Part shown: positions 6,913 through 29,553 of the stretch, piece after piece | Layout of the letters: each line of letters opens with the position of its first letter | Position numbering within the stretch: the stretch's first letter is position 1 | NCBI RefSeq assembly: GCF_025629245.1 | Contig: NZ_JANZXN010000017.1 | Span: forward strand, 1-64,000 | Direction of reading: 5' to 3' | Source of the DNA: Natronobiforma cellulositropha | GTDB taxonomy: Archaea > Halobacteriota > Halobacteria > Halobacteriales > Natrialbaceae | Length of the DNA stretch: 64,000 nt | The notes under the pieces: generated by a model | Databases searched by the model: none | Told to the model about the DNA's origin: nothing | What the model saw: only the letters and a program-made list of their open reading frames with translations | Translations under genes and position numbers: made by a program

Positions 6913-7074
6913 TTACCGGAGGTCCCGAGCTTCTTCCTGGCTGAGATAACAGCCACAGGAGGCCTGGATGGTGAACGGGCCGGTGGCGGTCACGCCGACG
7001 ACCACGCTCTCACAGCGGGGACAGCGCGGCGGGTTCCACTCCTCGCCGCCCCAGCGGTCGTACTCCTCGCTCAT
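6913..7074 (-). CDS. 53-residue zinc-ribbon-like small protein
   Basis: A short ORF runs from ATG at 7074 to TAA at 6913. The 53-residue product has CPRC at residues 18-21 and CGC at 40-42, two metal-ligand pairs about 20 residues apart as in a minimal zinc ribbon. It begins MSEEYDRWGGEEW, a tryptophan-rich acidic start, and ends SQEEARDLR. Codon use matches its neighbours and the cysteine knuckles make chance unlikely. It is convergent with the DUF502 gene, 39 bases away. The function is unknown; such micro-proteins in haloarchaea may bind nucleic acid or protein partners. Confidence 0.75.
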   Translation of the reverse strand: MSEEYDRWGGEEWNPPRCPRCESVVVGVTATGPFTIQASCGCYLSQEEARDLR

Positions 7075-7374
7075 CGACGTCGCTCCGTGGGGGTTGCTTG
7101 AGCGGTTGCAGGGTCTACTCGCGTGCGCGAGGCGATGGCAGGTGCTTGAGCGCGTGAATCGGTGGCCAACACGCGAGCGCGTGGCTGGCTGTCGGTTCCC
7201 TGTGCGCGCAACTGGTTGTCGACTTCTCGAGTGGTCCGCCGGGACCGTGTGGCCGGCCCTCGAGTGAGAGACTGGTCTCCTCGAGTGAGAGGGTTGGGAC
7301 TCCGAGAACCGGCGTTTCGCGGGCTGTACGGTGCGTTTGCGAGGCTTTTAAGTTCGCGTGGTTGGTACTGAATC

Positions 7375-7509
7375 ATGGCTTCAAATCCATCTCTGGATGT
7401 GGAAGCCACGCCTCGGGTGCTGGTACCACCCGGGGCACTTTCTGTGCGTGCCCCACCTCGACGGCGGGCGTCGCTTCCAGGTGTGACTTTCACGAAGTCC
7501 TACATATAA
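7375..7509 (+). ncRNA. candidate structured RNA or mobile-element remnant: five consecutive stem-loops
   Basis: The 7075-7799 gap has no convincing large gene. Within it, five perfect stem-loops lie end to end: 7377-7382 with 7402-7407 (inner stem 7385-7389 with 7394-7398), 7414-7419 with 7427-7432, 7432-7438 with 7448-7454, 7459-7463 with 7469-7473, and 7485-7489 with 7495-7499. A TATA-like CTTTTAAG at about 7345-7352 sits some 27 bases before ATG 7375, which opens a 44-codon frame ending at 7509. The frame is Arg- and Pro-rich and may be incidental. The density of stems suggests a folded RNA, or the structured end of an IS200/IS605-type element. Confidence 0.4.
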
Positions 7510-7799
7510 TTTCTGGAAATGGGTGGTGGTGATGAAGCGGGTGTCTGGCTCACCTGTACTGGGTACTCTGGACGGCCAAACAGAAGTTTGACACCGTGCT
7601 CGTTGACAAATCACGCCTGAGATCCGGTTACTTCAGGATGCTTTATGGGCGACTGTCATTGAATTGAATGTCTGGTTTGGAAGGTATTTTCTTGCCTATT
7701 TTGACAGACTGTCCGATAGACTTTATCGATTAAAACCGGAATTGGATTGATTATCTATGACCGAAAGACTGAGTAGTCTATCACCTCCACTGGCCTGTT

Positions 7800-9953
7800 A
7801 TGTCTGATGAATCTGGTGAACCGGGATTGCTCTCAGATTCTTCCTTGGAAAAGCCGGAAGATGATCAACTAGGATACAATGATTTTGCGAAGGATATCGC
7901 AGGCTCAATCACTTCTGAAGTACCCCGAGAAGACTTCATTGTCGGGATTTACGGCCCTTGGGGGTCCGGAAAAAGTACGGTTCTCAACTTTGTCGAATAT
8001 TATCTCAAACAGGATGAGGAACCACCTGCTGTTATTCGTTTTAATCCGTGGTGATTCTCCGGGCAGGAAGACTTGCTTGAACGGTTTTTTGCTCAGTTAG
8101 AGTCTGGGTTAGAAAAAGAGGATGGATTCGGAAAGGTTAAAATACAGATCTCAAACCTTTCCGCAGCACTTTCAAACATTCCCTTGTCAGCAGTTACGGG
8201 TGTCCCATCCCAGAGATTGCTGCAGTACCTGTCGCAAAGGCTGGACCCTACCCCAAAGAATGCGGAAGAGCTGAAAGAAGATATTTCTAATTCTCTTAAA
8301 GATACTAACCGTAGAATTGTTGTGTTTCTTGATGATATTGATCGGTTGACTGAGGATGAAATGGCGCAGATGTTTCGACTTGTGAAAAGCGTAGCTGACT
8401 TCCCTAATGTAACCTATGTCTTGGCTTTCGACCACGAAATCGTTACTAACGCACTGGAAAGAGAACATGTAGTTCGGAACGGTGAGGAGTACCTCAACAA
8501 GATTATACAGTTACCTCAGCACCTTCCTGTACCTGAGACGGGTGCCCTTGATCAGTTTTTTGTAGAACGTCTTCTTCAGATTGTTGGTGATCAGGTAATT
8601 GGTATCAATGAACATCACTGGCAAAGGGTCTATGGAGACGGAATCCTACCGACTTTGAATACGCCAAGAGATGCTGTCAGACTTTCTAACTCGGTGCGTG
8701 CTTCGTATAGGCGTCTTGAGGATGAAGTGAACTTTATTGATTTGGTCGCTGTTGAAACATTGCGAATCTTCCACACAGATGCTTACGAGTATATTCGCAA
8801 ACATCCTAGTGAATTCGTAAATAAAGTTGGGACACGCCGGTTGCGGGATGAGGATGACTACTCCAGATTTTTGGAAAACCATGTCTCGGGAAATTCTGAA
8901 CGAGTAGAAGGGATTCTCACATATCTTTTCCCACGGTTTGACACTGGGCCCTCGTTCATGGGATCACGATATAATGAAGATCACAGTACATTCCGTAAAC
9001 GGAAACGGATCTGTCATCCAGAGATGTTCCCCTTCTACTTCCGTCAGACAGTTCCTCAAGGGGAACTTACCACGATCGAAATGGAAACGGCTCTCTCTGT
9101 TTCTGATGATTCTGAGGCATTTGCTGAGGAATTGAGACGGTTATCGAGAGAGGATGGTATAGATGGTCGATCAAAGGCGAATACGTTCCTAAAACGGTTT
9201 ACCGACTATACAGATGATATTTCAGACGATAATATTGGTGGAGTGGTAGGGGCGTTATTGCTTGTTGGGGATGAGTTGTGTTCTGTTGATCCATCCAAAA
9301 GTATTATGGACGATGGAACACTCAACCAGATCAACCGGATTTTGCGGGAGTTACTCAGAAGGGTTGAGAACCGTGATGAACGGCTGGCATTGCTTGAACA
9401 AAGCGTTAGAGAGGGCAACTCGCCATACGTATCAAGCCATGTCACTGCTAACATTTACCGAGAACATGGCGAGTTCGGTGGTGAAAGCATCGAAGAGGAT
9501 GAACGGTCGCTGAATTACAATCAACTCGAAGAACTTACCTTAGCTGTGGTTGAGAAGATTAGGGAGATAAGTGAGGAAGGTGAACTGCTGGAGACACCGA
9601 ACCTTGATATTTTAATTGCGAGATGGATGAAATGGGATGACTCAGAGAAACCCGTTGAATGGGTTGAACAAAACACCCAGGAGCCCGATGATCTACTATT
9701 CTTTCTCAGCCACTACGTTAGCCAAGGATGGTATGCTTCACAGGCTGAAAGAGGTGAACAACAGTACTTCGACCCCAAAAAGCTGGTCCCCTTCTTCGAA
9801 CTTACCGAACTAGAATACAGGTTAGACCAGCTTGAAAATGAGGAGCTAGATGATTGGGAACAGTTGACTATTGAACTATTCAAGAAAGGGAAAGAAATGT
9901 TGGATAATGGTCGTGAACCCGGTGATTTCTCCGCATGGCGTTTTGACAGATAG
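7800..9953 (+). pseudogene. KAP-family P-loop NTPase, interrupted by one in-frame TGA
   Basis: The frame from ATG 7800 to the stop at 9951-9953 encodes a 717-codon KAP NTPase apart from one TGA at 8052-8054. The Walker A GPWGSGKST is at residues 52-60. The Walker B FLDDIDRL is around residue 178, followed by a sensor-like VTYVLAFD. The TGA follows FNPW and precedes FSGQEDLLERFF in the same frame; KAP proteins commonly read FNPWWFSG here, so TGG to TGA is the simplest explanation. All downstream motifs are intact, so the lesion is recent, a sequence error or read through. A TTG at 8073 could restart translation but would lack Walker A. The gene is much AT-richer than its neighbours, which suggests transfer. 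KAP NTPases occur in anti-phage loci, but no partner gene is visible. A 16-codon ORF (7757-7807) overlaps the start. Confidence 0.85.
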
Positions 9954-10342
9954 AACGTGAAGTGTCGCGATTCTCTTTTAATAATATCTTTGCCGTGGTG
10001 AATCATTAGACGGGGGTCATTTCACTGTTTGATGGGACGTGTGATATTGTAGACGATCCATATCTGATAGATGTCATGTGGCTCACGATACCAGGTTCGC
10101 GCACGCACGGCGTCGCCGAGCGTACGCTTGATCACCAAGAAAGCGCTTTTTAACCATAGATGCCCTCAATCCGCACGTTATGCGCGTGATCGGTGGGCGG
10201 GCCTATTGATGCATGATCAGCGGTCTAACGCCTTCTTCTCATAGTTTCAGAAATCGCATTCTGTTCACAGACAGCTGCAAACTGATTGACGACCGCTCGT
10301 AGACTCTCGAGCCCACGACATCGGCCACGACCGCACCGATCC
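9954..10342. other. 389-base intergenic stretch without a recognisable gene
   Basis: This is the right flank of the AT-rich island. It contains only very short frames; the longest start-to-stop runs are about ten codons (near 10160 and 10180). A TATA-like CTTTTTAACC lies at about 10147-10156. I see no tRNA, terminal repeat or attachment site. Host-like composition, including a CTCGAG, returns at about 10300, close to the ilvE stop. Confidence 0.5.
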
Positions 10343-11272
10343 TCAAACGTATGTGAACCACTCGTCGTACTCGTCGGTACGGCGTTCGACGACCTCGAAG
10401 AAACGCTGCTGGATCGCTTCGGTGACCGGACCTCTCGAGCCGCTGCCGATCTCGACGTTGTCGACCTGGCGGATGGGGGTGACCTCGGCGGCCGAGCCGG
10501 TGAAGAACAGTTCGTCTGCGGTGTTGAGTTCGCCGCGAGAGAGTGAGACGGAGTCGTAGACGTCGTAGCCGAGGTCGCGTGCGAGGGTGATCACGGTGTC
10601 GCGGGTGATGCCGTCGAGGATGGACTCGGAGAGACCGGGTGTGTAGATGTCGCCGTCGCGGACCAGAAAGAGGTTCTCGCCGGGACCTTCGGCGACGTTG
10701 CCCTCCTTGTTGAGGACGATGGCTTCGGCGTAGCCGTAGCGGCGGGCTTCCTCACCGGCGAGGAGGCTGTTGACGTAGAGACCGGTCGTCTTCGCGTTCG
10801 TCGGGACCTGACTCGAGGAGTGTTTCCGCCAGGAGGAGACCATCACCTCGATACCCTCTTCGAGTGCCTCCTCGCCGAGGTAGGCTCCCCAGGGCCAGAC
10901 GGCGATGGCGGTGCGCGTCGGACAGTCGCGGGGACTGACGCCGAGGGAGTCGTAGCCGTAGAAGGCGATGGGGCGGATGTAACACGACTCTACGTTCTGT
11001 CGGCGGATCAGCTCGAGGGTGGCGTCGGTGAGTTCCTCGTGGCTGTGGGCGATCTCCATCTCGTAGGGTTTGGCCGACTGAAACAGCCGTTCGACGTGTT
11101 CGTCCCAGCGAAAGAGCGCGGGACCCTCTTCGGTGTCGTAACAGCGTGCGCCCTCGAAGACGCCGGTGCCGTAGTGCAGTCCGTGTGTGAGAACGTGTAT
11201 CTGTGCGTCTTCCCACGGGACGAACTCGCCGTCCATCCAGATCGTGTCGACGTCCATCTCGTCGAATCCCAT
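10343..11272 (-). CDS. ilvE: branched-chain amino acid aminotransferase
   Basis: It transfers the amino group between glutamate and the 2-oxo acids of valine, leucine and isoleucine, using pyridoxal phosphate. The 309-residue class IV aminotransferase has the PLP lysine K161 in VPTNAKTTGLYVNS, the substrate-binding HGLHYGTGVFEG (residues 30-41) and the phosphate-binding segment near EGPGENLF and DGITRD. It catalyses the last step of the pathway encoded at 52-60 kb but lies 42 kb away and is transcribed alone. ATG 11272 gives the normal N-terminus MGFDEMDVDTIWMDG. Confidence 0.95.
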   Translation of the reverse strand: MGFDEMDVDTIWMDGEFVPWEDAQIHVLTHGLHYGTGVFEGARCYDTEEGPALFRWDEHVERLFQSAKPYEMEIAHSHEELTDATLELIRRQNVESCYIRPIAFYGYDSLGVSPRDCPTRTAIAVWPWGAYLGEEALEEGIEVMVSSWRKHSSSQVPTNAKTTGLYVNSLLAGEEARRYGYAEAIVLNKEGNVAEGPGENLFLVRDGDIYTPGLSESILDGITRDTVITLARDLGYDVYDSVSLSRGELNTADELFFTGSAAEVTPIRQVDNVEIGSGSRGPVTEAIQQRFFEVVERRTDEYDEWFTYV

Positions 11273-16542: not shown

Positions 16543-18081
16543 TCACGCGTCGTCTCGAGCCCAGCCTCGAGCGCAGTCGACGGCGTCGCCCCAGCGCTCG
16601 TAGCGCCGGTCTGCGACCGCCTCGTCCATCGTCGGCTCGAACCGGCGGTCGGCCGTCCAGTTCGCGCGTAGTTCCTCGAGACTCTCCCAGTAGCCGGCGG
16701 CGAGGCCAGCGGCGTAGGCCGCCCCGAGGGCGGTCGTCTCGTCGACGACGGGGCGGACGATCCCACAGCCGAGGGCGTCGGCCTGGAGCTGACACAGGAA
16801 GCTGTTCTTCACCGCACCGCCGTCGACTTTCAGCGCGTCGATCTCGATACCCGAGTCGGCTTCCATCGCCTCGACCACGTCGCGGGTCTGGTAGGCGATC
16901 GACTCGAGCGTCGCGCGCACGAGGTGTTCCTTCCGGGTGCCGCGGGTCATGCCGACGATGGTGCCGCGGGCGCGTCCGTCCCAGTGGGGTGCGCCGAGAC
17001 CGGTGAACGCCGGGACCAGGTAGACGCCGTCGCTCGAGTCGACGCTCCGGGCGAGCGCTTCGGTCGCCGCCGGCTCGTCGATCAGGTCGACGTCGACCAG
17101 CCACTCGATGGCTGCGCCGGTGACGAAGATCGATCCCTCGAGTGCGTACTGGAGCGGCTCGCCCGACCGCTGGAAGGCGACGGTCGTCAGGAGACCGTGT
17201 TCCGAGGTGACCGCCTCCTCGCCGGTGTGCTGGAGGAGGAAGGAGCCGGTGCCGTAGGTGTTTTTGGCCTCACCGGCGTCGAAGCAGGCCTGGCCGAACA
17301 GCGCCGCCTGCTGGTCGCCGAGTGCGCCAGTCACCGGCACCGACGCGCCGAGGAAGCCGTCGGGGTCGGTCGAGCCGTAGGTCTCCTCGTCGCTCGAGGG
17401 GCGGACCTCGGGCATCATCGCGCGCGGAATCGAGAACTCCGCGAGCAGGTCGTCGTCCCACGCGCCGGTGTGGATGTCGAAACACATGGTGCGCGAGGCG
17501 TTGGTCACCTCGGTGACGTGCTCGCCGGTCAGCTTGTAGATGAGCCAGCTATCGATCGTTCCGAAGACGACCTCGCCCGCACGCGCCCGGTCGCGGACGT
17601 CCTGGGGCCGGGCGCGCTCGAGTTTGATCGGGTCGGCGTTCTCGAGCAGCCACTCGACTTTCGTCGCCGAGAAGTAGGCGTCGGGCTCGAGACCGGTTTT
17701 CTCCCGGATCGTCTCGCTCAGGCTGTCGGTCTCGAGCCGTTCGACGCGCTCGGTGGTCCGTCGGTCCTGCCAGACGATGGCGTTGTAGACCGGCTTCCCG
17801 GTGGCGACGTCCCACAGCACGGTCGTCTCGCGCTGGTTGGTGACGCCGAGCGCTTCGAGCTGGCCCGCGTCGATTCCGCCCGCCTCGAGCGCCTCGCTCA
17901 CGACGCGTTTGGTGTTCGCCCAGATCTCGAGGGGGTCGTGTTCGACCCAGCCGGGTTCGGGGTAGTGCTGTTCGTGGGTCTCGTAGGCGCTCGAGACGAC
18001 CGCTCCGGCGCGGTCGAACACCATGAAGCGCGTGCCGGTCGTTCCCTGGTCGATCGCGCCGACGTAGGTCTCTTCGCTCAC
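16543..18081 (-). CDS. glpK: glycerol kinase
   Basis: It phosphorylates glycerol with ATP to sn-glycerol 3-phosphate, the entry step of glycerol use, important for haloarchaea living with glycerol-producing algae. The 512-residue FGGY kinase has the phosphate-1 loop [13 protein letters not shown] (residues 11-23), the substrate segment [11 protein letters not shown], the [11 protein letters not shown] loop and the adenosine motif [13 protein letters not shown]. It is divergent from glpABC with only 68 bases between the two starts, so they share a control region. The C-terminus ends close to the VapC stop (35 bases). Confidence 0.96.
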
Positions 18082-18149
18082 GGGTATCGTTCAGCGCTTC
18101 GTTCGCCGACAGGGTAAAGCACGCGGCGGCCGTCGATTTCGACGACCAG

Positions 18150-19913
18150 ATGGAACGATCGACGACCGACGTGCTCGTCCTCGGCGGTGGCTCGACCGGC
18201 TGTGGCATCGCCCGCGACCTCGCCCTGCGCGGACTCGAGGTGACGCTCGTCGAGCGGGGGAACCTGACCCACGGCACGACGGGCCGGATGCACGGCCTGC
18301 TCCACAGCGGCGGCCGGTACGCGGTGTCGGATCGGGCGAGCGCCCGCGAGTGCATCGCAGAGAACCGGATTCTACGCGAGATCGCGGGCCACTGCGTCGA
18401 GCAGACGGGCGGACTGTTCGTCAAGCGGCCCGAAGACCCGGACGACTACTTCGAGCAGAAACTTCGAGGCTGTCGCGACTGTGGTATTCCGGCCGAGGTG
18501 CTTTCAGGAACCGAGGCGCGGGCGCTTGAGCCGTATCTCGCCCCCGACGTCGAGCGCGCGATTCGGGTCCCCGACGGCGCGGTCGACCCCTTCCGCCTCT
18601 GCGTCGCGAACGCGATGGACGCCGAAGCCCACGGTGCACGGATCGAGACCCACGCCGAGGTTGTCGACCTCCTGCGGGAGGGTGAGGAGGTCACCGGTGT
18701 GCGCGTCCGCCACGACTCCGGGCCTGGCAAACGGACCCACCTGCGGCCGGGGACGACCGAGGAGATCACCGCCGACTACGTCGTCAACGCCACCGGCGCG
18801 TGGGCCGGGAACGTCGCCGCCCTCGCGGACCTCGAGGTCGCGGTCCGTCCCTCGAAGGGCGTGATGACGATCATGAACGTCCGGCAGGTCGACACCGTGA
18901 TCAACCGCTGTCGGCCCAAGGGTGACGCAGACATCATCGTCCCCCACGAGACGACGGCGATTCTGGGGACGACCGACGAGGAGGTCTCCGACCCCGACGA
19001 CTACCCCGAGGAGCGCTGGGAGGTCGACCTGGTGATCGACCAGCTGGCCGAACTCGTGCCCATCCTCCGCGAGGCGCGGACCATCCGCTCGTTCTGGGGA
19101 GTGCGCCCGCTGTACGAACCGCCCGGCACCGCCACCGTCGACCCAACGGACATCACCCGCGACTTCTTCCTGCTCGACCACGCCGAGCGCGACGGCGTCA
19201 CGGGTATCGCGAGCATCGTCGGCGGGAAGTTCACCACCTACCGGGCGATGGCCGAGGAGATCGCCGACCACGTCTGTGCGGCCCTCGGCGTCAGTGCCCG
19301 GTGTGAGACGGCCGAACGGCCCTTGCCGGGCAGTGAGAACCTCGAGTCCGTTCTCGAGCGCATGGACGCGTTCGGTCTCCGCTCGCCCATCGCCCGCCGG
19401 AGCGCGGACCGACTCGGAAGCCGCGCACCCGATGTCCTCGAGTGCGACGGCCCGAATCCGGTGCTCTGTGACTGTGAGGGCGTCACCCGTGCGGAGGTTC
19501 GCGACGCCATCGCGGCGTCGGGGACGGACCTGAACGCGGTGCGCATCCGGACGCGCGCCTCGATGGGCAACTGCCAGGGCGGCTTCTGCTGTCGCGAACT
19601 GGCCCAGGAACTGCACCCGGACCACGGCCACGAGGTCACGATGGCGGCGCTCGCCGACCTCTTCACCGAGCGCTGGAAGGGCCAGCGCCACGCGCTCTGG
19701 GGTGAACAGCTCTCACAGGCGATGCTCACCTACGCCCTCCACGCGGCGACGCTCAACCGCGACCGGGCCGACGACGGGCCGCTCGAGTTCGGGACCTTCG
19801 ACGCGGGACCGGACCGCGGGGGCGAGACGGGCGTCCCGGTGGCCGACGGCGGGCCGGAGGGCAGCGGGCCGCACGGCCGCGAGCGGACGCGAGGTGGTCG
19901 CGGTGGCGATTGA
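18150..19913 (+). CDS. glpA: anaerobic-type glycerol-3-phosphate dehydrogenase, subunit A
   Basis: It oxidises glycerol 3-phosphate to dihydroxyacetone phosphate with FAD as part of a membrane-associated GlpABC complex feeding the quinone pool. The 587-residue subunit has the FAD dinucleotide fold [21 protein letters not shown] at the N-terminus (residues 7 onward), the DAO-family core, and a C-terminal BFD-like [2Fe-2S] region with CDC and NCQGGFCCR (around residues 440-480). The tail is long and acidic. The GTG of glpB lies inside its last codons (11-base overlap), indicating translational coupling. Confidence 0.95.
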
Positions 19914-21192
19914 GGACGACGTGCTGGTAGTCGGCGGCGGTCTCGCCGGGCTGACGGCGGCGCTGGCTGCGGCCGACACCGGCGCTCGCGTCCGCCTCAT
20001 CTCGCACAAGCGGAGCACGCTCCGCCACGCGAGCGGGCTGATCGACGTCCTTGGCTACGGGCCGGACGGGCGGGGACCGCTCGTCGATCCCTTCGAGGCG
20101 CTCGAGTCGCTGCCCGAGACGCATCCGTACGCACGCGTCGGGTCCGAGATCGTCCGCGAGGCGCTCCACTTTTTCGACGCGGTCGTCGGCGACGCCTACG
20201 GTGGCTGTCACACGACGGCGAACGCGCTCGTGCCGACGGCCGACGGGACGGTGAAACCGACCGCGCGCTACCCGGCGAGTGTGGCGGCGGGACTCGCGAG
20301 CGACGCGCGGGCGACGCTGCTCGTCGGCTTCGAGACGGTCACTGATCTGAATGCGCCGCTGGTCGCCGCCGGACTCGAGGCGAGCGGCGTTCCGTTCCCC
20401 GTCCGCGGTGAGACGGTTCCGTTCCCGGGCGGTCTCCGGGACGACGCCACGCGGACCCGCTACGCGCGTGCGCTGGACCAGGACGAACGCGTCGAAGCTG
20501 GCAGCGTCCGCGTCCGGACCGCACTCGCCGAGGCGATCCGTTCGCTGCTGCGCCCCGCAGACCGCCGTCTCGGCCTGCCCGCGCTCCTCGGTCTCGAGAA
20601 CGCCGCCGTCGTCCGCCGTGACCTCGAAGAGCGCCTCGGCGTCGCCGTGTTCGAACTGCCGACCGGCCCGCCGAGCCTGCCGGGTGAGCGCCTCGAGCGC
20701 CTGCTGTTCGACGCGCTCGAGGCGGCGGGTGTCAGGGTGACGACGGGCGTGCCGGTCGTCGATTTCGAGACCGAGTCGGACGACCCGACTCGGATCGCGC
20801 GCGTCTTCGTCGACAGAAACGGCGCGCGGGTGCCCCACCGGGCGTACGAGTACGTCCTCGCGACGGGCGGTCTCGTCGGCAAGGGGATCCGCTCCTCCCG
20901 AGCGGGTGTCCGTGAACCCGTCTTCGGCTGTCCCGTCGCTCACCCCGACGAGCGAATCGAGTGGTCCGCCGCCGCGCCGTTCGGCGAGCACGCCTTCGCC
21001 AGGTTCGGTCTCGAGACCGATGGGTGGCTGCGGCCGCTCGAGACCGACGGCTCGCCGGTGTTCGCGAACTTGCGCGCGGCGGGGGCGGTCCTCGGCGGCT
21101 ACGACTTCCCCGCCGAGTGTTCCGGGAGCGGCGTCTCGCTCGCGACAGGCTACGCCGCGGGTCGGGAGGCGGGCCTGGAGGTGAGCGCGTAG
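19903..21192 (+). CDS. glpB: glycerol-3-phosphate dehydrogenase, subunit B
   Basis: This is the flavoprotein partner that links GlpA to the iron-sulfur subunit. The 429-residue protein starts with the nucleotide-binding motif [22 protein letters not shown] second conserved region is [14 protein letters not shown], and the C-terminal FAD segment is [17 protein letters not shown]. The GTG at 19903 is preferred because it places the Rossmann motif at residues 6-26, the normal distance; an earlier GTG at 19894 is possible. It overlaps glpA by 11 bases, and glpC begins on the base after its stop. Confidence 0.92.
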
Positions 21193-22509
21193 ATGAGCGA
21201 CGCTGATCGGTTCTCCGAGACGGACCGCTCGAGCGACGCCTCCGACCCGGTTTCGGTGTTTCCCGACGCCGAGTCGATGGACCTCCGTCCGGGTGCCGAC
21301 GACTGTTACAAGTGTTCGACCTGCGACAGCGTCTGTCCCGTCGCGGCCGTCGACGACGACTTTCCGGGACCGAAGTTCCAGGGACCGGAGCAGTGGCGAC
21401 TCGAGCGCCACGACGACCGCGAGATCGATCCCTCCGTCTCCGCGTGTTCGAACTGTATGCGCTGTGACGACGCCTGCCCCTCGGAGGTTCCGCTCTCGCA
21501 GATGCACAACACGGCGCGGGCGGCCTACGTCGAGGGGAACGTCCCGCGGCTCTCGCGGACCTACCTGCGCAACCGGCTGCTCTCGAACTACGGCCGACTG
21601 GCGTGGCTCGGGAGCAAACTCCCCCGACTCACCAATTTCGTGATGGGGCTGTCGGTCACTGGCTGGATCAACGAGCACGTACTCGGGATCACGAGCGAGC
21701 GCGAGTTTCCGACGTTCGCGACCGAGACGTTCCGCGCGTGGTGGCGTCGCCGCGGCGGCGCGCAGGTCGAGAACGCGAACAAGCGCGTCGCCTACTTCCA
21801 CGGCGACTACGCCAACTACAACACGCCGGCGGTGGCGAAGGCGCTGGTGCGCGTCTACGAACACTTCGGCTACGAGGTGGTCGTCCCGCCCCAGCGCTGT
21901 TCGGGGACGCCGATGTTCGCCAACGGCATGCTCGGAGACGCCCGGCGTGCGGCGCGGTTCAACGTCGAGACGCTCGCCGACCTCGTCGCCGACGGCTGTG
22001 CGGTGATCTGTTCGTGTACCTCCTGTTCGATGGCGCTGCGCCAGGAGTACCCCGAACTCTTCGACTTCGAGCGAACCGAACTCGTCGCGGCGAACACCTA
22101 CGACGCCCTCGAGTACCTGCGGATCAACGAGGACCTCGAGTCCGCACTCGAGGGGACGGAAACTGACGCCTTCGCCGGACTCGCCTACCACGCGCCGTGT
22201 CACGCGCGCAACCAGGGACTCGACGGGCAGGCGCTCGAGGTCCTCGAGTCGGTCGAGGGCGTCGACGCCGAGGACGTCGGCGACTCCTGTTCGGGCATCT
22301 CGGGGACCTACGGCTGGAAGCGCGAGCGCTACGAGACCTCGATGGCTATCGGCGAGGAGATGTTCCGCCACATGGCGCGCGCGGACGCCGACGCCGGTCT
22401 CACGGAGTGTCCGACCTGCGCGATGCAGATGCACCACGGCACCGGCTACGAGATTCACCACCCGCTCGAGGTGCTCGAGGCGGCGCTCTCGACACCGGAC
22501 GGCCGGTGA
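21193..22509 (+). CDS. glpC: glycerol-3-phosphate dehydrogenase, subunit C (iron-sulfur)
   Basis: It passes electrons from GlpAB to the membrane quinone pool. The 438-residue protein has two [4Fe-4S] ferredoxin motifs, C38, C41, C44, C48 and C85, C88, C91, C95. Two CCG domains follow, seen in the CTSCSMALRQEYP segment, in APCHARNQG with the distal SCSGISGTYGWK, and in ECPTCAMQMHHG. The start at 21193 follows the glpB TAG without a gap. It ends the operon and is followed by a hairpin and T-tract. Confidence 0.95.
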   Translation: MSDADRFSETDRSSDASDPVSVFPDAESMDLRPGADDCYKCSTCDSVCPVAAVDDDFPGPKFQGPEQWRLERHDDREIDPSVSACSNCMRCDDACPSEVPLSQMHNTARAAYVEGNVPRLSRTYLRNRLLSNYGRLAWLGSKLPRLTNFVMGLSVTGWINEHVLGITSEREFPTFATETFRAWWRRRGGAQVENANKRVAYFHGDYANYNTPAVAKALVRVYEHFGYEVVVPPQRCSGTPMFANGMLGDARRAARFNVETLADLVADGCAVICSCTSCSMALRQEYPELFDFERTELVAANTYDALEYLRINEDLESALEGTETDAFAGLAYHAPCHARNQGLDGQALEVLESVEGVDAEDVGDSCSGISGTYGWKRERYETSMAIGEEMFRHMARADADAGLTECPTCAMQMHHGTGYEIHHPLEVLEAALSTPDGR

Positions 22510-22739: not shown

Positions 22740-24851
22740 ATGGTGATCGAATTCGACGGCACGAGAAAGCCAACGGGGCTCGAGGTGTACGATCCGATTG
22801 AGCAGCGGCGGTTACACGTTCGCACCCCGACTGCGGTTTCGCCGACGCCAGCCGACGGGAGGCAGTTCTGCCACCCGGTCGATACGGCGTGTTCGATCGA
22901 GACGGACTCGATCGTCTTCGACCAGTTGTACGGGGTGCACATCCACGACGAGGACGGACAGTCGTTGTGTAGTCTCAGCGCGAACGACTCGGCCAGGTTC
23001 GAGGAGGACGCCCGGTTTCTCGGGTTGAGCGGCCCGATCAGAGTCTACACGCGACTCGAGACGACCGGGCTCGTCGAGACGGGCATCGGCTCGATTCACG
23101 TCACGTTCGACGAGCCGACGACCGTGACGATCGGTGCGCGCTCGCTGCACGAACAGCCAGCCGAGACGATCACGACGACGGACGAGCCGGCGGCGACGAT
23201 GCAGGCGGTCTCGGCGCTCTCGTCGGCGCTGAAGACGACTTCCCCGGAACGGGCCTGGCCGACGCTTCGCGGCCACCCGCCGCTGATCGAACGCGGTGAT
23301 CGTCTCGAGATTCCCTCGACGCTCGAACAGCCAACGACGAACGTTACGATCGAGGTTCCGGCGACCTATCAGGACATCTACGCCGTCTCACCGCTGGCGT
23401 TCTTCCTCGGTGCAGAGATCCGCGAGAGTGAGTATCCGGCGATCGTCACCGACGTCGCGACGTACGACCTCGCGCTGGGTATGCGACTCGAGGACGACGT
23501 CGCCCGGACGCTCAAACACATCTTCTTACTCGAGTGTCTCGTCCGAACCGAGGGTCTCTATCGCGACGATCTCAGAGAGCGCCACCTGCTCGAAGACGAA
23601 CTGCCCTTCGACTTCTTCGATACCTACCACGCCTCGCTCACCGACCGTCTCGAGGCGTACCTCTCGGTACCGTTCGACCTCGTCGAAGCGCACATTCCGC
23701 GCTGGCCGCTGACCGCGCACGTTCCCTCGACGCCCGAGGGCGTCGAGTTGCTCCCGTTCGTGGTGAACGAACTCGGCATCGTCCGTGAACCTCGCGGGAC
23801 GCGCATCGACGCGCTCAGTGAGATGCCGTCCCCCGAGGTCGCCGACGCGGGATTCGTCCGCTCTGCAGCGCCGCTCTCCCGGTCGGCTGACCTCCAGCGG
23901 GCACCCGTGTTCGGTCCCGACGACGGTGCCCCAACGGATCTCGTCGTCCCCGCCGTCACCGACGAGTCGATCGAACACGCCTGGTTCGGCAGCCAGGTGC
24001 CGCGGGGTGCCTCGAAAGCGACGATCGAAGCCTACCAGAACCAACTCGATCGCCAGCAGCGGACCCAGTCGATCGAGATCTTGCTGGTCTGTAACGACGC
24101 GCGGATGCTCGACGAACACGACGTCCTCGACGACGCCTACGGCACGCGGGATACGTTACCGTTCGACATTCACTCCGAGTTCGGCGTGTCGACGGACGAC
24201 CTCGCCTCGTTGCTGACCGACGGCGGCTACGACTTCCTCCACTACATCGGCCACGCGACGCCGGAGGGAATCCAGTGTCCCGACGGCAACCTCGACGTTC
24301 GGACCCTCCCGTCTGTCGACCTCGGCGTCTTCTTCCTCAACGCGTGTCAGTCCTACGAACAGGGTCTCGCACTGGCAGAACGCGGTGCTTTCGGCGGCGT
24401 CGCGACCCTCGGCGACATCGTCAACGAACACGCCGTCGAGACCGGCGAGACGATGGCGCGACTGCTCAACCTCGGCTTCCCACTGCGTGCGGCCCTCGAG
24501 ATGGCCAAAGAGACGACGACCATCGGTGACCAGTACCTCATCGTCGGTGACGGCTCGGCCGACATCGCCCAGACCGACGGCGGCGTCCCCTCGATCATCG
24601 AGGTCTCGGATACCCCCTCCGGCTACGACTTCGTGTTGCGGTCGTACTCGACGAAGGAGTTCCGTGTCGGTGCTGCGAGTGAGGTCAACCTCGAGCCAGC
24701 GACGCAGAAGTACCTCTCTCCGGGGCGCGTCGACGTGACGGACGTCCAGACGGGCGAGGCACACTCGTATCTGACGTGGACGAACGGTCCCGTCCTCAAA
24801 CACGAGTCGCTGGTGTGGAACGATGGCCTTCGCTCGCTCGATATCTGTTGA
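22740..24851 (+). CDS. CHAT-domain cysteine protease-like protein
   Basis: The 703-residue protein ends in a caspase-like CHAT domain (about residues 450-620). Its expected dyad is present: H505 in LHYIGHATPEG and C536 in FFLNACQSYEQG. The segment GVATLGDIVN and the following helix TMARLLNLGFPLRAALEMAKE complete the caspase-type fold. The N-terminal 440 residues have no motif I recognise; they contain no membrane helix or TPR pattern and may be a sensor or substrate-binding region. CHAT proteases act in immune and death pathways, such as gasdermin cleavage or Craspase; no such partner is seen here. The nearest gene is the convergent 45-residue peptide at 25053. Nested inverted repeats cover the promoter. 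Protease activity is inferred from the dyad. Confidence 0.9.
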   Translation: MVIEFDGTRKPTGLEVYDPIEQRRLHVRTPTAVSPTPADGRQFCHPVDTACSIETDSIVFDQLYGVHIHDEDGQSLCSLSANDSARFEEDARFLGLSGPIRVYTRLETTGLVETGIGSIHVTFDEPTTVTIGARSLHEQPAETITTTDEPAATMQAVSALSSALKTTSPERAWPTLRGHPPLIERGDRLEIPSTLEQPTTNVTIEVPATYQDIYAVSPLAFFLGAEIRESEYPAIVTDVATYDLALGMRLEDDVARTLKHIFLLECLVRTEGLYRDDLRERHLLEDELPFDFFDTYHASLTDRLEAYLSVPFDLVEAHIPRWPLTAHVPSTPEGVELLPFVVNELGIVREPRGTRIDALSEMPSPEVADAGFVRSAAPLSRSADLQRAPVFGPDDGAPTDLVVPAVTDESIEHAWFGSQVPRGASKATIEAYQNQLDRQQRTQSIEILLVCNDARMLDEHDVLDDAYGTRDTLPFDIHSEFGVSTDDLASLLTDGGYDFLHYIGHATPEGIQCPDGNLDVRTLPSVDLGVFFLNACQSYEQGLALAERGAFGGVATLGDIVNEHAVETGETMARLLNLGFPLRAALEMAKETTTIGDQYLIVGDGSADIAQTDGGVPSIIEVSDTPSGYDFVLRSYSTKEFRVGAASEVNLEPATQKYLSPGRVDVTDVQTGEAHSYLTWTNGPVLKHESLVWNDGLRSLDIC

Positions 24852-24883
24852 TCCGGTCGGTTTCTCGGACCCGGCTTCGTCTC

Positions 24884-24962
24884 TAGTAGCCACTGCAAGT
24901 CTGTGCACACCTGGTCGCCAGACGGATCGGCGATCAGTGTGTAAATCGTTGCAGTTGTTACT
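24884..24962. repeat. palindromic intergenic repeat, copy 1
   Basis: A 79-base element nearly identical (five mismatches) to 41349-41427. The inner part folds as TCGCC/GGCGA with flanking CACAC/GTGTG pairing, and the outer part pairs CACTGCAA (24890-24897) with TTGCAGT. It could thus form one long imperfect hairpin. This copy lacks the CTATAG outer arms of copy 2. It begins 32 bases after the CHAT-gene stop, between that gene and the convergent micro-peptide gene. The design is MITE- or REP-like, with no coding capacity. Confidence 0.8.
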
Positions 24963-25052
24963 CGCGCTCGGTGGTGGTTTCGACGTAGAGTGAATCGCTG
25001 TAGAATGCAGCCCGCGTTCGGTAGCCGTCTCTCGTGTGATGATCGCCTTCGT

Positions 25053-25190
25053 TTAGGGCCCAACGAACGTGCACTGACACCCTGCGCTCGCCGCGCCGGC
25101 CTGGCTGAGCAGCAGCATGATCGCGAACAGTGCGCCGATCATTCGTGGGTGCGATGCGAGTCGGGTGGTCAGCTTGTCATTGTCTGCCAT
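25053..25190 (-). CDS. 45-residue membrane or exported micro-peptide
   Basis: A short ORF runs from ATG 25190 to TAA 25053. The product has a charged start (MADNDKLTTRLASHPRM), a hydrophobic stretch (IGALFAIMLLLSQAGAASA, about residues 18-36) and a tail GCQCTFVGP with two cysteines. The hydrophobic part ends in AASA, a possible signal-peptidase site, and SAGC is a weak lipobox; either cut would release an eight- or nine-residue peptide. I believe very similar short proteins recur in haloarchaeal genomes as an uncharacterised DUF family, but I could not check this. An AT-rich promoter region lies upstream. It is convergent with the CHAT protease gene, 201 bases away, with a palindromic repeat between. 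Confidence 0.75.
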   Translation of the reverse strand: MADNDKLTTRLASHPRMIGALFAIMLLLSQAGAASAGCQCTFVGP

Positions 25191-25366: not shown

Positions 25367-26302
25367 TCAGGCGTACGCCAGGTCGTCCGTGTAGTGGTCG
25401 ACGAGTAACACCGCCGCACAGCCGACTACCGCAGCGAGCGCAGCGACCTCGAGCGAGCCGCCGGCGGTCTGGCCGAGGTTGTCGGGGTCCGTGACCTCCA
25501 TCGCCGGAAACCTGAGCGCACCGACCATCAGGCTCACCAGGAAGGCGAGCGTCGCTTCGCGGTAGCGATCCAGTGCCCGCTCGATCAGGTGGGCCATCGT
25601 GATGAGTCCGATCACCGCGCCGACGCCGAAGATGGCCACCGTCGTCCCCGACTCGAGAACTGGCGTGAGTGACCCGCCGTTGGCGACGGCGAGCAGGCCG
25701 TCGGTGAAGTCGCGAAGCGTCCCCGTGAGGTACTCGTACTGGCCGAGGATCAACAGGAAGAACGCGCCGGAGACGCCCGGGAGCACCATCGCACAGATGG
25801 CGATCGCGCCGGTGACGAAGATCACGAGCGGACCGTGTGGCGCTTCAGAGCCGGTGAGTCCAGTGATGAGAAACGCCAGCGTGACGCCGACGGCCGAGAC
25901 CGCAATCCGCCCCGGCGTCCACGATCCGACCTCACGGTAGAGGACGATCGCCGACGCCGCGATGAGACCGAAGAAGAACGCGTACGTCGGCACGGGATAC
26001 CCCTCCGCGGCGCTCGCCATCACCCGCGAGAGGACGACGACCGCCGTCGCGATACCCAGACCGAGCGAGAGCAAGAAGAAGACGTCCATCCGCTCGAGTT
26101 CCTCCTGGAGCGCCTCGCGTTCGTCCGTCCGGTGTGCTCGTAGCGCTGGCGCCAGCCCTCGCGGATCGAACGCCGTGATCGCCCGGATCAGCCGGTCGTA
26201 GATGCCGAGGATGAGTGCGATTGTCCCGCCCGAGACGCCGGGGACGACGTCCGCCGCCCCCATCAAAAACCCCTTCAGATAGACTCCGAGCGGCCCTCGC
26301 AT
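25367..26302 (-). CDS. DUF368 membrane protein, candidate polyprenyl-phosphate translocase (PopT type)
   Basis: The 311-residue protein has eight or more membrane segments and two copies of the DUF368 signature: GAADVVPGVSGGTIALILG (residues 15-33) and CAMVLPGVSGAFFLLILG in the middle. Bacterial DUF368 proteins (PopT) have been implicated in returning undecaprenyl phosphate across the membrane. In an archaeon the equivalent carrier would be dolichyl phosphate, released on the outer face when AglB transfers glycan. The aglB gene lies 95 bases upstream on the same strand, which makes this role plausible. The substrate is inferred from the family and the neighbour. Confidence 0.88.
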   Translation of the reverse strand: MRGPLGVYLKGFLMGAADVVPGVSGGTIALILGIYDRLIRAITAFDPRGLAPALRAHRTDEREALQEELERMDVFFLLSLGLGIATAVVVLSRVMASAAEGYPVPTYAFFFGLIAASAIVLYREVGSWTPGRIAVSAVGVTLAFLITGLTGSEAPHGPLVIFVTGAIAICAMVLPGVSGAFFLLILGQYEYLTGTLRDFTDGLLAVANGGSLTPVLESGTTVAIFGVGAVIGLITMAHLIERALDRYREATLAFLVSLMVGALRFPAMEVTDPDNLGQTAGGSLEVAALAAVVGCAAVLLVDHYTDDLAYA

Positions 26303-26396
26303 GTACGCGAGTGTAATCTACCTGCCGCCAAAAGCGTTCTCACCTGCCTCGATTCGTGCGTGCCGTCCCCGAGTGAGACGAAGCCCGCTCGTCCAC

Positions 26397-29324
26397 CTAC
26401 CCGGCCAGGGGAGTGAGCGCTCCGGCGGGCTCGGCTTCGCCCGCCTCGCCCTCTGCGTCACCGACTGCATCCTCGTCCGGTGTGGGTTCTACAGGTCCGA
26501 CCTCTTCGGGTGCGTCCGTCTCCTCTTCGGTCGGATCGTCGACCGTCTCGTCGGTCTCCTCGAGCGTGACGTCGATCGTCTCACCGTCGATCACGGCGGT
26601 CTCCGGCACCTCCGTTTCGCCGGAGTAGTGAAGCTCGAGCATGCCGTTCTCGTCCGGCGTCGCGACGGCGACCTCGTACGCCGAGAGCGCCTCGACGCTG
26701 CTGTCGGTGTAGCCGTCCTCGACGCCGAGTTCGTCGTCCGTCGCGTACGGCACCGTCAGCTCGAAGCTGCCGTCGTCCTCGACCTCGGCCTCTTGGATGT
26801 AGACGAACGTCCGGCCGGGGGCGGTCTCGAGTTCGACGACTGCGTAGGCGGTCGCGTCCTCGACGGCGTCGACGGAGCCGGTGAGCGTCGCGCCCTCGAC
26901 ACGCTCGAAGGTCTTCACCGAGGAGACGACCTGTGGGTTGTAGATGTACTCACTCTGGCTCACCGGGCTCAGCTGCTGGGCCTGTCGGACCAGGTCGTAC
27001 TGTGTACTGATCTCCGCGGCGTCACCGGACCAGGTGCCGTTCGTCCCTGACAGTTGCTCGAGTCGGAACGACTGGAGCGGATTCGGCAGGAACCCTTGTT
27101 GGGTGGCCGTCAGCATCGAGGTGACGGCAGCGTAGTCGTCTGTTTCGTGGACGAGCCGGTAGTGCTCGAGCCCGGTCGCGTCGTCGAGATACAGCGAGGC
27201 GAGCATCGTCTCCTCGTACTGCTCGTTCGGTCCGGGGAGGGTGAGCGGCTCTTCGCCGAAGGTGTACTGCCCGTCCTCGACGTAGCTCTCGTAGTCGGGT
27301 CCGGTCCACTGAGTGATCGCTCCGAACTTCCCGCCAGCCATCTTGTGGTCGATCATCACGTAGCGAATCTCCTCGTGGGAGCCGCCGTCGCCGATGGCGT
27401 CTCGGAGCTGATCGTCCGTCTGGTCGCTCACCGACCCGCCTTCGGCGATGGCGTCGAGGATCAACTCGGCGCGCTCTTCGCTCGTCGCCGTGAGGTAGGC
27501 TGCCGAGGAGGCGGCGTTCGACTGGAACGGATTCGAGTGTGGAATCCGTTCACCCTGGACCGTTATCAGGTGGCCGTAGTCCCACCACGAGAGCACGCCG
27601 TACGCCCCGACCGGATAGTCGAAGGTGCCGTCTTCGGGGTACTCGTAGGTGCCGTAGTACTCGAGTTCGGAGGCGTTGTCAGCCCCGGCCCAGTCGCCGA
27701 CCTCGGGGGTGTTCTCGAGCAGCCAGTGGTTCGCCTCTTCCCACGCCATCGCGTCGTCGCTCGGGTGCATGTTGGCACCACGGTCCCACACCGGGGCGGC
27801 CGCGACCGGCGGCAACAGCGGTGCGAACAGCATGACGACGACGAGGAAGACGGCGATCACCTGGTAGGTCTCGACGTTTCTGATCGCCTCGACGTTTCGC
27901 TCGAGGTCGAGATAGCGGACCACGTCGCTGATGAAGACGGCGTTGACGACGGCGACCGCGAGGACGAGGTAGTAGGCGAAACGCGTCTGGGTCGTCGACA
28001 TGCTGATCAGAAAGAGCGACCAGACGACGATCAGGGTGTGTTCGGCGCGGAACTCCCGACCGAGCCACGGGCGTGCGAGGAGGAGTGCGAGTCCGGCGAG
28101 GAACGTGTAGAAGGCCATGCCGAACTCGTCGAAGACGTGCTGTGGGTAGCTGTCGGGTGGCTGCGCCTCCGCGATGGTCGCCGTGCCCGTTCCGGGATCG
28201 AGTGGGAGGAGCCGGCTGGTGACGTTTCGGGCGATCGAACTGAAGAGATCGGGAGTGGCGAGCGCCATCACGACGAACGCGACGGTGATCAGCCCGACGA
28301 TGGTGACGGGATAGTAGGTGCGTGGCACCTCGTGGCGGTCCCACTGTCGGGCCAACCAGGCCATGAACACACAGCCGAACGCGACGAGAAACGCCGTCGC
28401 GGGCTGGAGAAAGCCGAAACTCGTCGCGTTCATCGTCGGCAGTTCGATCAACGCGATGGTGAACAGTCCGGTCGTTCCAAGACTCGTCACCCCGACGAAC
28501 GCGACGTGGTCGGGGGAGGTGCCGCGGAAGTACTCGAGACTGAGGTGGACGGTGAAAAACGCCGCGAGGATGCCGACGAACACGACGCCCGGCGGCCAGA
28601 CCCAGATGTACAGCGAAATGGAGATTCCCGCGAGGACGCTGAACAGCGCCGGTTTCTTCAGTGCATCGAGTTCGTTGGTGACGAGTAACTCGTAAATCGG
28701 TTTCTCTTGCTCTGCGACACGCAACGCGACCATCATCGCCAGCACCGACAGCGCCATGAACAGCACTTCGGCGACGTGGTGCTGGAGTTGGCCCGTCGTC
28801 GACCGGAAGAAGAAGGTCCCCGGCGCGAGCGCGAGAAGCAGTACGGAGACGAGTCCACCGAGTGTCCCACCCAGACGGCGGCCGATGGCGAAGACCGGGA
28901 GCGCTACCAGTGCTCCGAGAACCGGAATCGCGACCAGTGACACGGTGTAGAGGAGTTCTGTGCTCGGGTCACCGAGACCGACGACCATCGCAGCGGTGAC
29001 GATCAACTGGTCGAAGAGCGTGCCGAACTGCCCGACGTATCGCCCGGACGGAAAACTCGTCCAGATCTCGAACGGCATCGTCTGCGGATAGTTCTCGCTC
29101 GTCCACTGGACCGTCCGCCAGTGGTACCACGAGTCGACTGCAGCCAGTGCGGGCGTCCCGTCCTCCGTAGTGAAGTTATCGTACGACCGCATCCGCGTCC
29201 AGAACATAAAGAGCATCACGACCCCCAGAACTGGGAGGTGATACCACGACTCCCACGTCTCGAGGACCGAGCGAGATCGCTCCCCTTCGGTCCCCTCTTC
29301 GAGACGCTCAGTGTCAGTACTCAT
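26397..29324 (-). CDS. aglB: oligosaccharyltransferase AglB (STT3 family)
   Basis: It transfers lipid-linked glycan to asparagine of exported proteins on the outer membrane face. The 975-residue protein has an N-terminal multi-helix membrane half with the first acidic catalytic motif in AAVDSWYHWRT (D64), and a large extracellular half with the STT3 signature WWDYG (about residues 579-583). The C-terminal 150 residues are acidic, rich in Glu, Thr and Pro, and look like a flexible spacer. ATG 29324 (MSTDTERL) is preferred to a GTG two codons upstream. It is divergent from the glycosyltransferase genes with 229 bases between, which hold no other gene. Confidence 0.96.
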   Translation of the reverse strand: MSTDTERLEEGTEGERSRSVLETWESWYHLPVLGVVMLFMFWTRMRSYDNFTTEDGTPALAAVDSWYHWRTVQWTSENYPQTMPFEIWTSFPSGRYVGQFGTLFDQLIVTAAMVVGLGDPSTELLYTVSLVAIPVLGALVALPVFAIGRRLGGTLGGLVSVLLLALAPGTFFFRSTTGQLQHHVAEVLFMALSVLAMMVALRVAEQEKPIYELLVTNELDALKKPALFSVLAGISISLYIWVWPPGVVFVGILAAFFTVHLSLEYFRGTSPDHVAFVGVTSLGTTGLFTIALIELPTMNATSFGFLQPATAFLVAFGCVFMAWLARQWDRHEVPRTYYPVTIVGLITVAFVVMALATPDLFSSIARNVTSRLLPLDPGTGTATIAEAQPPDSYPQHVFDEFGMAFYTFLAGLALLLARPWLGREFRAEHTLIVVWSLFLISMSTTQTRFAYYLVLAVAVVNAVFISDVVRYLDLERNVEAIRNVETYQVIAVFLVVVMLFAPLLPPVAAAPVWDRGANMHPSDDAMAWEEANHWLLENTPEVGDWAGADNASELEYYGTYEYPEDGTFDYPVGAYGVLSWWDYGHLITVQGERIPHSNPFQSNAASSAAYLTATSEERAELILDAIAEGGSVSDQTDDQLRDAIGDGGSHEEIRYVMIDHKMAGGKFGAITQWTGPDYESYVEDGQYTFGEEPLTLPGPNEQYEETMLASLYLDDATGLEHYRLVHETDDYAAVTSMLTATQQGFLPNPLQSFRLEQLSGTNGTWSGDAAEISTQYDLVRQAQQLSPVSQSEYIYNPQVVSSVKTFERVEGATLTGSVDAVEDATAYAVVELETAPGRTFVYIQEAEVEDDGSFELTVPYATDDELGVEDGYTDSSVEALSAYEVAVATPDENGMLELHYSGETEVPETAVIDGETIDVTLEETDETVDDPTEEETDAPEEVGPVEPTPDEDAVGDAEGEAGEAEPAGALTPLAG

Positions 29325-29553
29325 TAGCACTCACCAGAAGCAAATAGGGAATAAGCCTTGTCATCTATCCGCGGAGTGTTCATGAGGGGGCGGTTAGTCG
29401 ATTTGTCGGTCGGTGTCCGCCTCGACCACCGCTGTCGGAACACCGATGCGTATCGGTCCAGTACCCGCTCGGGCGTCGTCCGTCGGGGATCCGTTCGGAT
29501 CGAGTACAGGTGACCGCGAGATTTTTGTAGGGTGACTCGTATGTGCGCAGTAG

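Follow-up and report, generated by a model that had tools for sequence, protein, structure and literature searches.

A CHAT-fold protease and a DUF7503 micro-peptide of haloarchaea: a convergent gene pair with a shared hypervariable cassette and a candidate recognition module

Two convergent genes lie in the 64,000-nucleotide window (the whole stretch of Natronobiforma cellulositropha DNA that was analysed), one encoding a protein of 703 amino acids on the forward strand and the other a peptide of 45 amino acids on the reverse strand (Table 1). Both reading frames and their orientation agree with the first-pass annotation, which had been made from the letters alone. The stop codons are separated by 201 nt, an unusually long gap relative to the median of 7 nt at 53 paired loci from named genomes, where the genes often overlap. 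Glycerol kinase and glycerol-3-phosphate dehydrogenase genes flank the pair on one side (16543-22509), while on the other side (25367-29330) lie a DUF368-like gene and one for a probable oligosaccharyl transferase, all named by eye; several of these flanking genes (the glp genes and the oligosaccharyl transferase) recur at some other loci of the window's family. Elsewhere in the window, a low-GC stretch (7000-11000, GC content of 0.45-0.53 against ~0.65) is possibly an inserted element.

Table 1. Coordinates of the features at the protease-peptide locus (positions in the window)
Feature	Position	Strand	Basis or remark
CHAT-type caspase-fold cysteine protease gene, 703 aa	22740..24851	+	ORF; 102-sequence alignment; AlphaFold2; Foldseek
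Catalytic His505	24252..24254	+	Invariant in 102 homologues
Catalytic Cys536	24345..24347	+	Invariant in 102 homologues
Protease C-terminal domain, residues 612-703	24573..24848	+	Putative reader of the tail; protease part of the hypervariable cassette
Protease residue 683, preceding invariant Pro684	24786..24788	+	Covariation partner of the first variable tail residue
Intergenic gap, stop codon to stop codon, 201 nt	24852..25052	none	ORF positions
DUF7503 micro-peptide gene, 45 aa	25053..25190	-	Pfam PF24335, E 4.3e-20; 110 aligned relatives
Conserved hydrophobic segment of the peptide, residues 17-33	25092..25142	-	Alignment of 110; strong codon constraint in Halorubrum (pN.02)
AxA site of the peptide, A34-S35-A36, signal-peptidase-like	25083..25091	-	Conservation in 110 peptides
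Variable C-terminal tail of the peptide, GCQCTFVGP, residues 37-45	25056..25082	-	Peptide half of the hypervariable cassette

The peptide (MADNDKLTTRLASHPRMIGALFAIMLLLSQAGAASAGCQCTFVGP) is a member of the Pfam family DUF7503 (PF24335, 71.5 bits against a gathering score of 27), and given this match its reading frame is a real gene. The 110 aligned members share one layout: a start that is polar or short and charged, the motif [HN]P[RK] with R or K after HP in 107 sequences, a hydrophobic run, QAG, an AxA site (Ala or Gly at position -1 in all 110, Ala or Val at position -3 in 105) and a variable tail. In a larger set of 136 peptides, the tail measures nine residues after AxA in 99 and ends in -GP in 127; the remaining 9 end otherwise. 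Charged residues make up 1.9% of the tails. The AxA site, the uncharged tail of set length and its -GP end suggest a short mature peptide behind an export signal. The AASA and SAGC motifs and the two cysteines that the first-pass annotation pointed out are present in the window copy. Its suggestion of a lipopeptide with a two-cysteine tail does not hold for the family: the 110 peptides carry no conserved lipobox Cys after the hydrophobic segment, position -3 of the window copy is Ser, which is not a lipobox residue, and Cys accounts for only 4 of 700 tail residues family-wide, so a disulphide peptide was also rejected.

For the 703-amino-acid protein, searches of Pfam, NCBIfam and PADLOC returned no assignment. 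The Pfam CHAT family (PF12770) has a cut-off of 24 bits, with no match for the window protein and scores of 13.5-16.8 bits for its relatives. An AlphaFold2 model built with 102 relatives (pLDDT 91, pTM 0.91) matches the PDB entries 8tl0, a SAVED-CHAT protein (E 1.9e-7), and 5fby (E 8.7e-7) in Foldseek, whose matches include separase, gingipain and caspases. His505 and Cys536 are the CHAT dyad, as the first-pass annotation had it, and are invariant across the alignment of homologues. By predicted structure and dyad, the protein is thus assigned to the CHAT-fold proteases, with a sequence score below the Pfam cut-off. Its N- and C-terminal parts are both predicted to be largely beta-rich, without a TPR match in Pfam, and the C-terminal domain is predicted to be beta-rich with one helix and has no match in Pfam or, by its fold alone, in the PDB. 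No obvious signal peptide was found on the protease.

The first-pass annotation had linked protease and peptide by proximity, a link to be given up if homologues of the two mostly occurred apart. We scanned named genomes with the CHAT protein alone, ignoring the peptide in the choice of loci, and found a convergent DUF7503 gene at 53 of 57 CHAT loci, 12 of them with touching or overlapping genes; one of the four unpaired loci is interrupted by a contig end. Among the 100 pairs listed within 2 kb, 99 are convergent, at distances of 5-227 nt. When seemingly unpaired loci were fetched, a convergent CHAT gene was present at 38 of 40 DUF7503 loci and a convergent DUF7503 gene at 30 of 40 CHAT loci. 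Nearly all DUF7503 genes therefore face a CHAT gene, most CHAT genes face a DUF7503 gene, and the pairing stands. The window genome itself has three pairs, as both of its other DUF7503 matches face their own CHAT paralogue. By a rough estimate (a handful of CHAT and DUF7503 genes per 3-4 Mb genome), chance adjacency has a probability well under 1 percent.

Both families are spread throughout the Halobacteria (of 194 genomes from the class, 179 have CHAT relatives and 164 have DUF7503), and genomes may hold several different pairs. We found no DUF7503 outside the Halobacteria; in a draw of 295 genomes across the phylum it was detected in 44, all within the window's own order. Some CHAT copies are carried on large plasmids. 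Some CHATs lack DUF7503, including those of one whole genus, and at ten peptide-less loci no other convergent small hydrophobic partner was found. No CHAT relatives were found in phage records or viral contigs, and a known defence system was rejected because PADLOC gave no match. The absence of a gasdermin partner, remarked on earlier, is borne out: the neighbour of the protease is DUF7503, and the recurrent neighbour families that we identified are DUF7504 (PF24336), immediately upstream of CHAT and in the same orientation at 34 of 119 loci and absent from the window, and HalX-type response regulators, directly upstream of DUF7503 at a distance of 106-167 nt at 12 of 110 loci. Both are consistent with a signalling role.

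The main result, on which the first-pass annotation is silent, is a hypervariable cassette composed of the tail of the peptide and the C-terminal end of the protease. Across the junction of the two genes in Halorubrum, nucleotide diversity rises from.08-.11 to.42-.61 and falls back to ~.1 with sharp edges, the low values lying in the protease catalytic domain and the peptide core. The high-diversity block, ~285 bp long, corresponds exactly to the protease C-terminal domain and the last ~9 residues of the peptide. In the 52 Halorubrum genomes searched (one genome per species), 29 DNA-distinct peptide copies carry 27 different tails on nearly identical cores; pN increases from.02 in the core to.44 in the tail and pS from.25 to.79. 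The protease behaves alike, with pN of ~.1 and pS of ~.4 up to residue ~620, except for a variable linker near residues 360-400, and with pN of.35-.47 and pS of.73-.82 from there to the end. We also measured the pattern in two other genera, one from another family, which repeats it (pN/pS of about.33/.77 in the C-terminal domain), and one representing the window's family, which shows it more weakly. In the latter genus and in other lineages the genes lie ~100 nt apart, and it is again the tail and the C-terminal domain that vary.

The cassette has a history distinct from that of the rest of the protease. Distances in the N-terminal part correlate at.91 with those in the catalytic part, and each correlates with those in the C-terminal domain at only.17-.18. 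Species pairs with flanks that are 88-96% identical have cassettes that are only about 45-70% identical; in one species pair the flanks are ~95% identical and the cassette is 100% identical. Where dS is unsaturated, dN/dS in the cassette is about.2-.3 and not above 1, and we do not claim positive selection from this ratio. As pS is raised together with pN and dN/dS remains at ~.2-.3, the cassette points to old allelic divergence or exchange rather than relaxed constraint. Trans-genus transfer was rejected, since every Halorubrum C-terminus has its best match inside its genus, and no alleles shared by different genera turned up. Hypervariability is absent from the peptide-less genus, a control that amounts to essentially one loss event and mainly one genus: its three species have core identities of.85-.89 and C-terminal identities of.80-.84, while C-terminal identity averages.50 among paired CHATs with core identities of.80-.95. 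The between-species data on cassette diversity and identity, drawn from one genome per species, would agree with an allorecognition locus under balancing selection.

Tail and protease also co-vary. Class-wide mutual information over all columns is dominated by phylogeny, and the analysis was therefore run again with separate cassettes, and also with Halorubrum left out. In 38 Halorubrum pairs, the strongest coupling joins the first variable tail residue to CHAT residue 683 (z 11.7), in the combinations A-L, V/I-V/I and Q-T (tail residue followed by the CHAT residue before the proline). After thinning to 23 separate cassettes with at least 42 percent C-terminal divergence, this pair alone reaches significance in each of the three draws (family-wise p.0025-.01), and no other inter-protein pair is consistently significant. 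Outside Halorubrum, the same pair gives z 3.8 (n=74), and z 1.8 under the strictest filter (n=50). The two codons do not overlap, so the signal is not an artefact of overlapping frames. Covariation between CHAT and the peptide, which the first-pass annotation had suggested looking for, exists; it had been proposed for the N-terminal region of the protease, which we rejected as the specificity part since the strongest coupling is C-terminal.

We consider it probable that in haloarchaea CHAT and DUF7503 constitute a recognition module of two cognate genes. The precursor would be DUF7503, with a short charged start, then a turn at [HN]P[RK], a hydrophobic segment, an AxA site and a tail of ~9 residues ending in -GP; the last ~90 residues of the caspase-fold protease would fold separately as a beta-rich domain and recognise the tail of the peptide encoded beside it, with tail binding switching the protease on or off. 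Both putative specificity parts sit at 3' ends, and convergence would place lock and key within ~285 bp, where one cassette could keep them matched when alleles diverge or are exchanged. Such matching is the likely cause of the conserved tail-to-tail order, and it offers a reason why selection can keep convergent genes in place. Several observations fit the recognition module less well. The protease has no obvious signal peptide, whereas the tail is apparently exported; one residue pair carries the consistent covariation, which weakens outside Halorubrum; dN/dS is low; and some CHATs have no peptide and some tails no -GP.

An unlikely alternative is that the peptide is a substrate: CHAT would cut it at the conserved HP[RK], the membrane-active product would kill the cell, upon virus infection for instance, and the variation would reflect an arms race. 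Separases and gingipains cleave after Arg, and the nearly constant basic residue after HP would suit such a cut. CHAT proteases elsewhere activate membrane effectors (PMC12881547), which also counts in favour of this alternative. However, the hypervariable part is the tail and not the proposed cut site, it is the tail that co-varies with the protease domain, and neither PADLOC nor phage records nor viral contigs gave a match. A docking role for the tail would merge cleavage with the recognition module.

It seems just as doubtful, and we rank it next, that the pair is a toxin-antitoxin or toxin-immunity system, in which the peptide would harm membranes and CHAT neutralise it, or CHAT would be toxic and held back by the peptide, and the cassette would diversify against cross-talk. 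The small, hydrophobic peptide, the tight linkage, the several different pairs per genome and the plasmid-borne copies would all be in keeping with this. Nevertheless, DUF7503 is present in most genomes of the class, the pair often keeps its glp and oligosaccharyl transferase neighbours in the window's family, unlike a roaming addiction element, the Halorubrum peptide core is almost invariant, and one whole genus has kept its CHAT genes in the absence of the peptide. Finally, it is very unlikely that the variation is a by-product without recognition, arising from faster mutation at convergent overlapping 3' ends or from loosely constrained C-termini: the joint rise of pN and pS, the touching or overlapping Halorubrum genes and a dN/dS not above 1 would allow it, but pS would not rise under relaxed constraint, variation keeps to the tail and C-terminal domain where the genes are well apart, its edges coincide with domain borders, tail length and the -GP end are fixed, the tail co-varies with CHAT residue 683, and peptide-less CHATs are not hypervariable.

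The pair shows the full defining features of none of the systems with which we compared it. The TPR-CHAT of Craspase, SAVED-CHAT and CHAT-gasdermin resemble it in protease fold, dyad and an adjacent small or membrane-acting partner; unlike them, the window protease has no recognised gasdermin, gRAMP, SAVED or TPR part, its partner is a 45-residue DUF7503 peptide, and its hypervariable C-terminal domain lacks PDB and Pfam matches. Rap-Phr, agr and ComX pherotype cassettes follow a logic similar to that of the CHAT-DUF7503 arrangement. By analogy with the Rap-Phr and RRNPP systems of Firmicutes, DUF7503 may be a precursor with an export-like signal and a short, species-specific C-terminal peptide, encoded beside an intracellular receptor; here, however, the proposed receptor is a protease without a TPR match in Pfam, and the genes are convergent and archaeal. 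In agr and ComQXPA, too, adjacent signal and receptor parts form a highly variable block within conserved flanks, but the CHAT-DUF7503 pair has no membrane-embedded receptor and no modifying enzyme, its genes are convergent rather than operonic, and the rarity of tail cysteines leaves no conserved thiolactone Cys for an agr-type cyclic peptide. The heterokaryon-incompatibility locus hetB of Aspergillus fumigatus has similar components: it includes a CHAT protease, has a narrow footprint of ancient divergence and encodes a short protein in its other allele (PMC11138114). The hetB alleles are alternatives at one locus, whereas CHAT and DUF7503 sit together in one genome. DUF7503 and DUF7504 are catalogued in Pfam without a function, and the open-access literature searched yielded no paper that deals with DUF7503 or with haloarchaeal CHAT proteins. 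The novelty lies in the pair and its cassette, as the single parts belong to catalogued families.

To our knowledge, hardly anything has been described of peptide signalling or self-recognition in haloarchaea. If the pair is a recognition module, its most likely deployment, favoured with less than even confidence, is that the tail would be exported as a self-identity peptide and read on uptake or cell contact; a purely intracellular sensor is somewhat less likely, and a trigger of incompatibility upon cell fusion less likely again. Haloarchaeal cells fuse, more efficiently within species, according to one study (PMC5496957). We suggest, tentatively and against the balance of probability, that this may be the first archaeal self/non-self system, in which the secreted or membrane peptide tail of a lineage is read by its own caspase-like protease as a pheromone or mating-compatibility check among DNA-exchanging, fusing cells. 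A pair found in most Halobacteria, with lock and key within 285 bp, is a concrete and genetically tractable candidate for self-recognition, and it would extend the link between caspase-like proteases and self-recognition, known from the fungal CHAT incompatibility genes, to another domain of life.

Some loci depart from the simple pair. At four, the order is CHAT-peptide-CHAT, the second CHAT having no peptide of its own nearby, and at another DUF7503 appears to be tandem-duplicated beside one CHAT, with identical tails. The sole clear split pair seen is in one genome, where a CHAT gene and a DUF7503 gene lie ~32 kb apart on the same contig. Frameshifted or interrupted CHAT or peptide copies also exist, at one inspected locus and among genome-search matches with internal stops, and the module can therefore decay.
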